Below are positions 20,602-62,000 of a DNA stretch of 64,000 bases, piece after piece. Under the pieces are notes generated by a model. It did no database searches. It was not told where the DNA came from and was given only the letters and a program-made list of their open reading frames with translations. Both the position numbers and the translations under genes were made by a program. The number at the start of each line of letters is the position of its first letter. Positions within the stretch are counted from its first letter, which is position 1. The stretch comes from Branchiostoma floridae (lineage: Eukaryota; Chordata; Leptocardii; Amphioxiformes; Branchiostomatidae), in NCBI RefSeq assembly GCF_000003815.2, contig NC_049982.1:7425440-7489439 (forward strand), written 5' to 3'.

Positions 20602-23600
20602 CTAGTTGGTCACTTTCTTCATCTGTGTGGCTGGTGAAAAAATGAAAGCAAAACAACATTAATGTCAGCTTTCATTAGGCACATCAAATCATATGGGATG
20701 TAAAGCTGAAGCTCCAATGTTTGAGGAGAGTCATACTTTGAGCTTGTTAAAGAACCCACCAAAATAGTAGGTCCCCATCCCAGTGTGAGTGGATCAAATC
20801 TTACAGTCTGATCTTACACTGCTTGACTGTACAAAACTGGTGTGCTACGCTTAGGCAGTTTCCTAGTTATACAAATAAAACAAACATCATCTGAATTTCC
20901 ACACATACATGTACCATTGTCCAAAGTTCAGTACCTACCATGTCCCCCAGTCTGTACAACTGCATCTCATCCTGTTTTATGAATACACAAAGGTCACATA
21001 AGTTCAGCACCTACCATGTCCCCCAGTCTGTACCACTGACTGTACCGCCTCCTGTACCCGGAGTGTGAATACACAAAGGTCTCATAAGTTCAGCACCTAC
21101 CATGTCCCCCAGTCTGTACCACTGCACCGCCTCCTGTACCCGGAGTGTGAATACACAAAGGTCACATAAGTTCAGCACCTACCATGTCCCCCAGTCTGTA
21201 CCACTGCACCGCCTCCTGTACCCGGGGTATGAATACACAAAGGTCACATAAGTTCAGCACCTACCATGTCCCCCAGTCTGTACCACTGCACCGCCTCCTG
21301 TACCCGGGGTATGAATACACAAAGGTCACATAAGTTCAGCACCTACCATGTCCCCCAGTCTGTACCACTGACTGTACCGCCTCCTGTACCCGGGGTATGA
21401 ATACACAAAGGTCACATAAGTTCAGCACCTACCATGTCCCCCAGTCTGTACCACTGACTGTACCGCCTCCTGTACCCGGGGTATGAATACACAAAGGTCA
21501 CATAAGTTCAGCACCTACCATGTCCCCCAGTCTGTACCACTGCACTGCCTCCTGTTTCATGAATACACAAAGGTCACATAAGTTCAGCACCTACCATGTC
21601 CCCCAGTCTGTACCACTGCACTGCCTCCTGTTTCATGAATACACAAAGGTCACATAAGTTCAGCACCTACCATGTCCCCCAGTCTGTACCACTGCACTGC
21701 CTCCTGTTTCATGAATACACAAAGGTCACATAAGTTCATCACCTACCATGTCCCCCAGTCTGTACCACTGCACGGCCTCCTGTTTCAGGTCCAGCTCACC
21801 CAGCCTGATGCTAGTCCCGCCCAGGAAGCAGTTCTCCCTGACCGACTCGCTGCTCCAAACCGTGAGCTGGAGCGTGCGCCGCTGCACGTCCGCCAGTGGC
21901 ATGTTATACACCAGCATCTCGTTATACGTGGGGTTCAGAGACTTCTTTGCTATCTTCGTCTTCTGCTTGGTGAGCTTGGCGGGGTCGGGGAGGAGGTAGG
22001 TCTTGACGTAAGGGTTGGGGTACTCGCCGTCCTGAGACTGGAGGTCCTTGGCGTGCATGACCATGATGAACAGGCCGTTCTTCTTGTAGTGGATGGACAG
22101 TTTGACGGAGCCTCCCACCTGCCCTATGGTGGGGGGACGGTTGGAGGAATCTGGATAGGATCAACATAAAACATTTAGTCTTGTACATAATGCAAACTAG
22201 GGTAAATGTAGTGGACAACGTCAACTCAAATGTACATACTTCAGAAAGTCGCATGGTTTCTAATGAGAAACATTATTCAAGCCCAAACTCAGACATATTT
22301 GGCTGGTGTGGCATCTTCAAGGGGTTGCATTTCAATGTACATTATAGAGAAAATTTTGTATGAAAGATGCTAATATGAAAACATATCATGCCTAACTAAA
22401 AAGATAAGTTTTAAGTTCTCCTGTGGTAGAGGTATTCAAACAGACAGTCTGCTGGATAAGCCACTGTGTACCTTATTACATCCATTCTAAGCATTCTAAG
22501 CGATTCAAGTATAAACATCAGTAATAGGAGTGGGTACAGGTACAGAAAATTCAGGTCCAGTTCCGGTTCAGGTCCAAAGGATCAGGACTGGTCCAGGTCC
22601 GGACCTGAACCTGATTCAGTATGACTCATACCAATGGTCCATTTCACTGCAGAGAAATCTGTTTGGTGGAGTATTAGACTTATACTGGCGTTTTAAATCC
22701 TACAACGCTAACTCCACCTGCACGATCAGCTGTAAAACTTAGTAGAAATTACTATAAAGTCTACTCTACTTCACTCTTGTTATTTTCTTCCACCTGCAAG
22801 CTCAAAAATGTGTGAATGCCTGATAAAATAATCGGTTAATTTTATAATCGGTCCAACATCTGGTCCACTTATTTTTTTCAGGTCCGTTTTTTCTGGACCG
22901 GTCCAATAAGAAAAACCCAGCCCTAATCAGTAACATCAAGCATGACCCACCACCTATCTTCAGCATGTTGGCAGCACCTGCGTCCTTCTCATCCCTCAGC
23001 ATGGGGTGGAAGAAGGTGTAGACCAGGTCGGACTGCGACACCTGCGGAGGGGCTGACATCACCTCCTTCAGGTAGATGTTCAGGTCCACCTGCCGACGCT
23101 CCGCCACCTGGGGGGTCAAAGGTTGTCTTTACACAGGAAAATCATTACAAGCCTACAATATTTTTATTTGTTTAAAAAAAAAAAAGGATTCATCTGAGAA
23201 AGGCTAAGAGATCACTTCTGAGCATTGAACTAACTTTCAGGACTTTGACTGTATCTCTTCTCTGTGAGTCAGAAAATACATGTCACTGGCCCAGTATTTG
23301 CTTGAACCAAGCATTTGTGGTCCCATGGCAAATTCTTGTACTGGCATGTGGGGGGGGGGGCGGTATGAGTCAATGGTTTTCTTCAGAAAGGTAACTTATC
23401 ATAAGCATAATAAATTTTCTTTTCTTAAAAAAGAAGTTCAGCACAGGACGAAGGGGCCACTTCAGCCTTGTATCCAAAACAACTAAACGCTCCTGAGCCT
23501 GTTCAGTCCTTTGTGCAAATTTGCAGGTAATTAGGTTTGGATACCAGGGTACTCGGGACTGAAACAGCATCTCTTCTCCCTGAGTCAGAAACATCAGGAT

Positions 23601-59000: not shown

Positions 59001-62000
59001 CATCTACTGAGAGAGCAACAGAAAATAACCATCAAATAAATACAAAATTAATGTGCATTAGATGTATTGTTACACAGATAACCTACACGTACCACAAAAA
59101 ACTACAATGTGTATCACTTGAAATATTGTTGCAAAAACCTAAACTAAACAATCACAATAGTTATAAGATTAAACAAAGAGAACTGATTTTATTGTCAGGA
59201 TGTGGAGTGAAAAGTTCTTGCCTGTCTCTGGGTTGAGGTTGAAGTAGAAAAGCGACCCATCGCCCAGCGCACACAGAAGGTAGTGGATCCCCTCAAATGT
59301 GGTCATCAGGATGGAACGGGGAATGATTTCTGTACAAAATAATAAAAGTAGGTTAGTATGTTAAATGTCACTACATCTGCTCTACATCTGCTGTCTGTAT
59401 TGTATTGTGTTGTTGCCATTCAAGTAATATTCAGTCTGCTACATGGCAAGAAATACTTATGTGTTGCATTGATTATGTTGATGGTATGTATCTGCACAAA
59501 AGATCAGACACAGAAACTCTCTCTAACTTTCTACTTAGATCATCCCACATTTACTCACCTCCCCCCAGCATCTCTACATGCATGGGCTCCAGGTTAGGGA
59601 GCTGCAGCATGTGTGCAGAGATGTCTGTCCACAGTCCCACAGCACATAGGTGGGCTCGGTCACTCCCCTCCACCAGCGGAGTCACATCCAGACACGCCAC
59701 CTCACGGGCCATCACTGTTTCACTGGAAATACAATATCATGCATTGTACATTTAACAAAATAAAATGTGTTTCATTCAGATACAATAACCTCAATGGTCA
59801 TCACCATTTCACTGGAAATATAGCATAAGATTCAGCAAAACATCATGTGTTATATCCACATACAGAAAACCTCATGGGCCATCACTGTTTCACTGGAAAT
59901 ACGATACATATTCAGCAAAACACGATGTGTTACATCTAAACAGTCAACCTCACCGGCCATCATGGTTTCAAAAAGCAGTTACTCAGGCAACTGCATATGA
60001 TTTTGGAAACATTCATATGCACGTGCTTGCGACTGCCTCCTCTCATATTGCACAACAGTCTCGTCCTTTATAACATTACTAGCATATCCTTCTAGAACTG
60101 TCCACATGAGCTGACGGTCCCTACCCAAGCTGCTTGAGCTCTCCCTCGTGGATCTCAATGTAGTAGACAACCTGTCCGACTGCACACACCACCTGGGTCG
60201 TGTTGGAGCTCGCTACGCTGATGTTCTTCTCTGACGGGGGCTTCCACTCACTGGGGGACGATCAGATTGTTGGTTCATTCTTATGCTTGTTTGTCTAGTT
60301 TGTTTGTATAATGGACATAAACAAGTCTGTCCTGACAAAATGAGCAGAACACTGCATTAACAAAACTGCAAGTTCTGTATTCTTTGAAGGTTCATGACAG
60401 TATGACATTATCATTTTTGTACACAAATGTTGTTCAAAAATGTCTAATACTAACTGGACATTTCCTTCCTGTTAGCCTACCTTAAAATTTATAATAAGTC
60501 TAAGGATTAACTGATTATATGTCAATAAGGATCTTTAGAGAAAAACAAATCTAAGGATTTTAATTTATCATTCATGAATGCATGGTAAGTTTACAAATGA
60601 ATAAAAATCCACCAGAAGGCACCTTTCCCTTTACCTGTTCAAATATATCATGGAAAGTAAATTGCCCTGGCGGAGATAGGCTCTGTTTAGCTGGTCATGT
60701 GGTTATTTTACCTGACAAGCTGTTTTGTCTGCCTGCTGACCAATCGTACAGAGGCGGCTGTTATTTGTAGCAGTTGTCCTCCCATGACATTACCACAGAA
60801 GAACGTCTGTTTGTCCTCAAATCCTGGCAGTTCCGTCTCCTCTACTTCCTCCCCACTCAACAGAAGCACTCTGAAAGGATACGAGGAACGGCATATTTGG
60901 GTTATTAATTAAGATTAGAGCAGTTTTAGAAACCACATTTTTGCAGAGCATTTGAAGCCTTGTCACTATAAGTGCGTACTAATTTTGTATTTGTATTCTT
61001 GTACTTATACTGATAGGGCAGGTCAGTATGATGAGGTTATAGGAATGTTAAAGTAATTAAAGAAGATATTGCAATTTCTACAATGACATGCAAGTTGACA
61101 ATCTACAAAGTTAACCATCTACTAAGTACCTGTTATTCACAACACCAACAAGTCTAAACATTTGACATTGCATAATAAGATATGCACATGCATTTAAATG
61201 TATAGACCAGAAATTCATGGATTGAACTTCAAAGAGTGCACACATGAAGAGGGAAGGACAACACATAGAGTTTGAAACCAGAAATTCTTACCTTGTTTGC
61301 CCCACAAAAGCCAGTACTAATGTATCATCCATTGTCCCATTGGGATCCACACACAGGGGCCAAATCCCTGAAATGACAAAAAAGGTTACCATTGAATTCA
61401 ACATTTCCTCATATAGCCACCATATGTCAAAATAGCGTCCTTAAGTTTTACAAAAAGCTTTTATGGAGTGCTGGCATCATGATTGTCATATATAAACTAC
61501 ATTGTACTCCAAAAAGTTTTGCACTGTACATGAGCACCTCCTGTTGACTGTCAGAGGAACTGCACATTTGCTGCACTCATGCAAAGGATGTGCAGTGTTG
61601 AGTGCATACTAAATCAATGTTTTCTCCTAAATTTTAATACTCTATATACCTCTTGCAGTGTGAAATTACAAAAAATCTCCACCTTTGATTCCGGGCAGGT
61701 CGATGCTGGCATGTTCGTGAATGCCGATCCCGTTCCGTATGATCCGCAGCGACCCCTCCTTGTACGCCCCGGAACAAGTGACCAGCTGTCCCTGACCCTG
61801 TCTCTCCAGGTCAACCACACACATGTCCACGATGGGACCCAGGTTGGTGAACGTCTCCATCACGTGGACGTAGGAGCCACTGTCGTCTGCATCCACGTTC
61901 AGCTATGAACAGAAAAAGGTCAATATGAAAATGACATTTCTATCACTTCATAAAATACAGGAATGTATAGCTCTGTAGGTTCCTGACAAAGGTCACAAAA

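Follow-up and report, generated by a model that had tools for sequence, protein, structure and literature searches.

Copied exon edges, probably mirage minisatellites, in three neighbouring genes of the lancelet Branchiostoma floridae

We analysed a stretch of 64,000 nucleotides of the Branchiostoma floridae genome (assembly GCF_000003815.2, contig NC_049982.1, positions 7,425,440 to 7,489,439 of the forward strand), hereafter the window. It holds three intron-rich genes encoding a class II PI3-kinase (PI3K-C2), nucleobindin, and DDB1, in which 49 modelled exons give 90 exon edges. At seven of these edges, the edge itself is found again in the adjoining intron, an arrangement that resembles the mirage minisatellites described in amphioxus. 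The host genes are:

21747..37487, minus strand: class II PI3-kinase gene (PI3K-C2), 19 exons modelled; exon-by-exon matches to PDB 7bi2/7bi4, C2 domain
41974..47796, plus strand: part of the nucleobindin gene, 9 exons modelled; tblastn, splice model
53060..63569, minus strand: 3' part of the DDB1 gene, 21 exons modelled; tblastn, splice model

Homology anchors were extended into splice models by use of phase continuity and a simple site model; the anchors for nucleobindin and DDB1 came from tblastn with human protein queries. The PI3K-C2 model is without its last and a few internal exons. In the splice models, the joined DDB1 exons read open to the stop codon and the nucleobindin piece is free of stops.

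Seven exon edges with intronic copies

A 60-mer centred on each edge was aligned locally to 1 kb on either side, and the null distribution was drawn from 1500 60-mers aligned to unrelated 1-kb stretches, for which the 99.9% quantile coincides with the maximum score of 30. Scores of at least 34 were obtained at 7 of the 90 window edges versus none of the 1500 null comparisons. These are exactly the seven edges named in an earlier reading of the same DNA (the original prediction), and all of them are exon boundaries in homology-supported genes. The remaining 83 edges score below 34; the highest of these, 32 at donor edge 28946, is explained by a wholly intronic array that comes to within 14 bp of it. 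The DDB1 edge 53760, also among the 90, is misplaced in the model, as AG is missing there. A search with Tandem Repeats Finder (TRF) and self-BLAST revealed 11 families of local direct repeats in the window, 9 of which fall within the three genes. The arrays and copies at the seven edges are listed with edge score, number of extra copies, and junction spacing:

20924..21787, minus strand: array at donor 21747 of the PI3K-C2 exon 21747-22150, found by TRF and self-BLAST; score 110; 10 extra copies, 76-86 bp apart; 10 decoy donors with first intron base at 21670, 21594, 21518, 21432, 21346, 21264, 21182, 21100, 21014, and 20938
29752..30134, minus strand: array at donor 30055 of the PI3K-C2 exon 30055-30259, found by self-BLAST; score 92; 2 extra copies, spacing 148 and 182 bp; decoy junctions 29872 and 29724
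31887..32093, minus strand: copy of the 3' edge of the PI3K-C2 exon with donor 32014, 92% identical; score 52; 1 extra copy, spacing 121 bp; decoy junction 31892
43271..43917, plus strand: array at acceptor 43887 of the nucleobindin exon 43887-44072, found by TRF and self-BLAST; score 75; 3 extra copies, 163-168 bp apart; decoy acceptors 43391, 43556, and 43719
47410..47657, plus strand: array at acceptor 47647 of a nucleobindin exon, found by TRF and self-BLAST; score 75; 2 extra copies, 104-105 bp apart; decoy acceptors 47438 and 47543
55993..56182, minus strand: copy of the 5' edge of the DDB1 exon with acceptor 56057, found by self-BLAST; score 45; 1 extra copy, spacing 123 bp; decoy junction 56180
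59683..59970, minus strand: array at acceptor 59722 of the DDB1 exon 59559-59722, found by TRF and self-BLAST; score 66; 3 extra copies, 78-89 bp apart; junctions 59811, 59892, and 59970

The extra copies total 22, and the exon portion of the unit ranges from 11 bp (47647) up to ~80 bp (30055, 32014). Coordinates, strands, and copy numbers (one to ten) are right as first described. The claim that a tandem unit straddles each boundary holds at five edges. At 32014 and 56057 the boundary is spanned loosely, by intron parts of 6 bp and 2-3 bp, respectively. Homology at 32014 covers 86 bp (80 of exon and 6 of intron) with an unrelated 35-bp spacer between both copies, and the 67-71 bp of homology at 56057 are nearly all exon. 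Because of the spacer in one case and the nearly all-exon homology in the other, these two edges do not now form clean unit-to-unit tandems. It had also been stressed that arrays lie on the intron side with the functional copy outermost. This is true of the arrays but uninformative, because a unit that includes part of an exon leaves only one copy joined to the exon body and the geometry forces all others into the intron.

Four intron-only repeats lie within the PI3K-C2 span, of which the first two serve for comparison:

28252..28933, minus strand: array of 115 bp x 5.9, 99% identical, 14 bp from the PI3K-C2 donor 28946-28947
29294..29677, minus strand: two-copy repeat, 76% identical, in a PI3K-C2 intron, found by self-BLAST
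23237-23806 and 24618-24716: two weaker arrays

The 5' part of DDB1 lies outside the window; its N-terminal exon was found in a flanking stretch (L005). A 100-N assembly gap (53413-53512) falls within a DDB1 intron, distant from the arrays. The PI3K-C2 and nucleobindin genes adjoin head to head (21747-47796); human PIK3C2A and NUCB2 are neighbours as well. Elsewhere in the window, two adjoining plus-strand frames (9850-12842) with endonuclease/exonuclease/phosphatase and reverse transcriptase domains constitute a non-long-terminal-repeat retrotransposon, and a rhodopsin-family seven-transmembrane receptor (7tm_1, E 3.8e-25) is encoded without introns at 2379-3212 on the minus strand. Several diverged direct repeats of 68-75% identity are located at 4754-5810, outside the three modelled genes.

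Decoy splice sites and divergence of the copies

The original prediction held that only one copy at each edge is used and that the rest decay. The splice sites of the copies speak against such decay. GT or AG is retained in 21 of the 22 copies, and in 17 of 22 the splice-site score equals or exceeds that of the functional site. All 10 decoy donors at 21747 score 3.9, the same as the functional donor. The decoy acceptors at 43887 score 2.0, 3.1, and 3.1 (functional site, 1.7), and two of those at 59722 score 2.4 (functional site, 1.0), the third copy being without AG. At 30055, the first decoy scores 0.1 versus -0.1 for the functional donor and the second is degraded; at 47647, one decoy acceptor scores at least as high as the functional site and the other is weaker. 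The single decoys at 32014 and 56057 score -1.9 versus 5.9 and 4.0 versus 8.2, respectively. Splicing to a decoy would introduce an in-frame stop codon in all 21 cases tested.

Relationships between units were determined for the 21747 array. Adjacent units are the most similar, and divergence is greatest for the unit at the far end, with 57-72% identity to the others as opposed to 77-100% among the inner units. Such a gradient is expected for expansion by slippage or unequal exchange.

Differences in the exon part of the copies at 30055, 32014, 43887, 56057, and 59722 are synonymous in 45 of 86 cases, compared with a neutral expectation of 0.22-0.27. The copies at these five edges also bear nonsynonymous changes, stops, and indels. 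The synonymous share fits a constrained exon that stands next to an unconstrained copy. In one 59722 copy, none of the five differences is synonymous.

Two other identities were considered for the copies and rejected. The copies contain stops, indels, and nonsynonymous changes, which speaks against retention as coding sequence, and the synonymous share would be raised by constraint on the exon by itself. An RNA gene found no backing in Rfam, which gave no match within the window at gathering thresholds.

Edge copies elsewhere in the assembly

Edges outside the window were predicted with a gene finder that, when cross-validated, made 92 predictions and recovered 73 of the 90 known edges. With the threshold applied here, the finder called 19 exons in reversed sequence versus 85 in the forward direction, and some of the outside edges are therefore false. 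Eleven myosin-family loci were picked by PF00063 matches with repeats disregarded. Their predicted exons cover 45 of 49 family matches (28/30 and 17/19 in two sets), and a copy was found at 7 of 135 predicted edges (6/77 and 1/58). The affected edges include both donors and acceptors and the copies always lie on the intron side, which upholds the suggestion that the structure is not confined to the three genes. Four affected edges belong to one myosin gene, L033 (G000:C10:21154800-21159300). Here 21 near-identical decoy acceptors ~50 bp apart (1352-2633) precede the exon that opens with P-loop coding sequence. The repeated AG|GTGAGA of L033 resembles a donor as well. Two other myosin loci contain a tandem duplication of an entire exon with its flanks at 74% identity (L035, 3598-3883; L037, 2041-2326), as in mutually exclusive exons.

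A random set comprised 22 stretches of 10 kb, 20 spread over the genome and 2 flanking the window; one, all N, was excluded. Scores of at least 34 occur at 5 of 166 predicted edges in this set, and one of these, at L009, survives inspection with 26 decoy donors. The four edges set aside are two in L019, where a minisatellite was predicted as an exon, one in L023, where the repeat lies inside a predicted exon, and one in L014 without a nearby self-BLAST pair. The rate of edge copies thus varies from 7/90 in the window and 7/135 at myosin loci to 1/166 in random stretches, the last figure being lowered because false exons dilute the count. One flanking stretch also contains a predicted coding region with an internal repeat of 66-bp period (L005, 4534-5113) in a reading frame that, judged by eye, is transposase-like.

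Adh3 and GFP loci were selected for their exons and are excluded from every count. In the Adh3 region (L040), one exon has an array at each edge, of 59 bp over acceptor 643 and of 33 bp over donor 872, which is the same kind of structure as in the window. There are nine decoy donors at 872, eight of which score 6.7 like the functional one. Two further arrays, of 25 and 29 bp, lie at either end of the exon before it, the edges of which are outside the model. The B. floridae genome encodes 16 GFP-like proteins (PMC2679011). A search with an amphioxus-derived GFP yielded 68 exon matches, grouped into 14 clusters, and the exons of the best gene are 64-88% identical to it. These clusters place the assembly within the amphioxus lineage. 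One GFP gene (L027, G000:C4:24588900-24590300) has a clean acceptor-side mirage at 664-921 that is 88.6% identical with both acceptors intact. A second (L028, G000:C17:14896200-14897500) has a perfect 98-bp tandem copy of a donor edge at 538-735, the first copy of which breaks the exon with a stop. The L028 copy could be a young lesion, a sign of a pseudogene, or an assembly error.

Placement and origin of the arrays

The original prediction proposed a comparison of exon edges with intron interiors. On a small sample, its outcome depends on what is counted: junctions lead when arrays are counted as events, and interiors lead when positions are counted. We counted events because the position-wise measure scores one long array many times. 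For each array, the chance expectation was taken from random positions of a single unit within the same gene, the permitted positions being intron-only or across one edge. In the window, 7 of 9 arrays straddle one edge versus 3.16 expected (P 0.010; P 0.02 in a previous version whose rules differed slightly). Outside the window, 7 of 11 vetted arrays are at junctions versus 2.69 expected (P 0.004). The pooled figures are 14 of 20 versus 5.85 (P 0.0001), and among arrays of at least 88% identity they are 6 of 7 versus 1.59 (P 0.0006). The test excluded whole-exon duplications (L035, L037, L019) and the exon-internal array of L005. It also left out L014 7102-7629 and L023 3984-4129, the inclusion of which gives 9 of 13 outside the window (P 0.0005). 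L035 1989 (edge score 47) and two weak intronic L035 pairs were below the array threshold, and L039 (chain score 53) was outside the myosin edge test.

The phenomenon has been described in amphioxus under the name mirage minisatellites, contrary to the original prediction, which knew of no account of it as a systematic phenomenon in this lineage. Such minisatellites are known in Adh3 (Canestro et al. 2002, as told in PMC3087553), in the globins BflGb6 and BflGb9 (PMC3087553), and in PGBD5, with troponin C also mentioned (PMC3902484). The published mirages and the window arrays share tandem repeats that span one exon-intron boundary, donor or acceptor, with copies on the intron side, decoy AG or GT dinucleotides that are often intact, and the same lineage. 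Inner units are homogenised and outer units divergent, which applies here to the 21747 array and in the globins to BflGb6, where units are homogenised inside and the end unit is divergent (PMC3087553). The window differs from the published cases in its three further host genes, in a unit of up to ~180 bp (published range, 10-160 bp), and in the untidy tandems at 32014 and 56057. No genome-wide survey of mirage minisatellites was found in the open-access literature, outside which most subscription papers lie.

We consider it very probable that the seven arrays are amphioxus mirage minisatellites, that is, local duplications of ~80-180 bp that include one boundary, some of which have been expanded and homogenised. 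Most likely, the process starts with a short local duplication, whether or not exon edges are preferred, and slippage or unequal exchange then expands and homogenises some of these duplications. Full-length message would come only from the copy joined to the exon body, leaving the others as intronic decoy splice sites. The decoys are probably tolerated because exon definition would choose the site that bounds the exon body and because the in-frame stop brought in by a mistaken choice should lead to destruction of the stray message. We infer the mutational process, the non-use of decoys, and, from a small sample, an edge preference over chance.

Several points weigh against this interpretation or against a preference for edges. 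Clean tandem units are lacking at 32014 and 56057, and only about 1 in 166 edges of random stretches has a convincing copy. The first 30055 copy shows 10 of 15 differences to be synonymous (neutral expectation 0.26), which a simple dead copy does not predict and a constrained exon does not fully explain. The presumed non-use of decoys and instability of the arrays are carried over from the literature on other loci. The window was selected because the pattern was noticed in it, and old junction arrays are easier to detect because the functional exon diverges more slowly. The event test weakens under other choices: addition of the two weak intron-only arrays changes the window result to 7/11 (P 0.043), collapse of the L033 junction arrays changes the outside result to 4/8 (P 0.078), and treatment of three random-set junction calls as intron-only changes it to 6/13 (P 0.064). 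Measured by position, there is no excess at edges, and interiors are ahead in all four sets. For 60-mers from intron interiors, copies close by were found at 16.5% of 3137 positions in the window (edges, 7/90), 4.8% of 4873 in random stretches (5/166), and 10.4% of 1581 and 4.2% of 1301 in the two myosin sets (6/77 and 1/58). The junction bias of arrays is thus suggestive but not proven, given a small sample that is partly carried by one gene.

Much of this evidence bears on an alternative account in which ordinary tandem repeats are placed at random and many straddle edges by chance where introns are short. Introns are indeed short (median 378-582 bp), and chance alone provides 0.1-0.7 junction placements per array, or ~3.2 of 9 in the window. 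Intron-only arrays in the same genes, the position-wise counts, the loss of significance outside the window once L033 is collapsed, and the easier detection of old junction copies beside a conserved exon all point in the same direction. The pooled excess at junctions argues against random placement, and so does the excess among arrays of at least 88% identity, for which detection bias is presumably small. We regard random placement as a doubtful but real possibility. Exon edges as true hot spots of minisatellite birth or survival in amphioxus, with AG|GT acceptors favoured, seem unlikely. This reading draws on the junction counts given above (14 of 20 arrays, and 6 of 7 among those at least 88% identical). 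At an AG|GT decoy, an erroneous first splice would restore a donor, and a second splice would then correct the error; entire rows of such decoys would therefore be harmless and could persist, which is why AG|GT acceptors would be favoured. AG|GT is present at 4 of 6 mirage acceptors versus 33 of 195 other acceptors (one-sided p 0.011, post hoc). Donors show no such excess, with AG|GT at 5 of 9 mirage donors versus 89 of 192 others.

It is very unlikely that selection keeps the copies for use as alternative or reserve splice sites. In favour of such use, most decoys are intact and the synonymous share exceeds the neutral expectation. Intactness can also stem from homogenisation of young arrays, however, and the constrained exon by itself raises the synonymous share. 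The stop that each tested decoy would add, the nonsynonymous changes, stops, and indels in the copies, and the 59722 copy devoid of synonymous differences speak against use. For Adh3 and the globins, the published text reports normal splicing by reverse-transcription PCR (PMC3087553). Also very unlikely is an assembly artefact in which collapsed or concatenated haplotypes generate false tandem copies. Amphioxus is highly polymorphic, the window contains a 100-N gap, and the perfect, exon-breaking L028 copy could be such an error. PGBD5 repeat numbers vary between two assembly versions, yet the same repeats are stated to be confirmed by re-examined Sanger and new Illumina data (PMC3902484). Moreover, copies in the window differ by 6-28%, far above recent assembly error, and similar arrays are found at many loci, although the most uniform arrays may have been assembled with an incorrect number of copies. 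Insertion of a dispersed satellite or transposable element at splice sites would explain why similar structures occur at many unrelated genes, but each array is built of its own gene's sequence. The two units tested, from 21747 and 43887, have 4 and 5 matches in the 513-Mb assembly (431 contigs), all at their own locus, which makes such an element exceedingly improbable.

Mirage minisatellites, as we take these arrays to be, are related in form to two other known systems. The Rogers model of intron gain invokes tandem duplication of an AGGT-containing segment (PMC4974935, PMC3087553), which likewise multiplies splice signals within a gene. The model has an exonic duplication yield a new intron, whereas in the window an existing edge is copied into an existing intron. 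Human UBC contains dual-specific AG|GT splice sites in tandem repeats (PMC10809524), and several of the mirage junctions analysed here are AG|GT. In UBC, the repeats belong to the coding sequence and vary in the number that is spliced (PMC10809524), whereas the mirage copies reported here are intronic and presumably unused.

The phenomenon itself is already known as mirage minisatellites; the new elements are PI3K-C2, nucleobindin, and DDB1 as hosts and a first small measurement of mirage frequency and junction preference. If a few per cent of the exon edges of an animal bear rows of near-identical decoys, the genome would allow spliceosomal choice between equivalent sites to be studied as a natural experiment, and it would hold a lasting reserve of duplicated splice signals from which introns could be gained. 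The most extreme rows are the 21 decoy acceptors of the L033 myosin gene and the 26 decoy donors at L009. With the frequencies measured and the suggested bias towards junctions, both questions can be tested across whole lancelet genomes.

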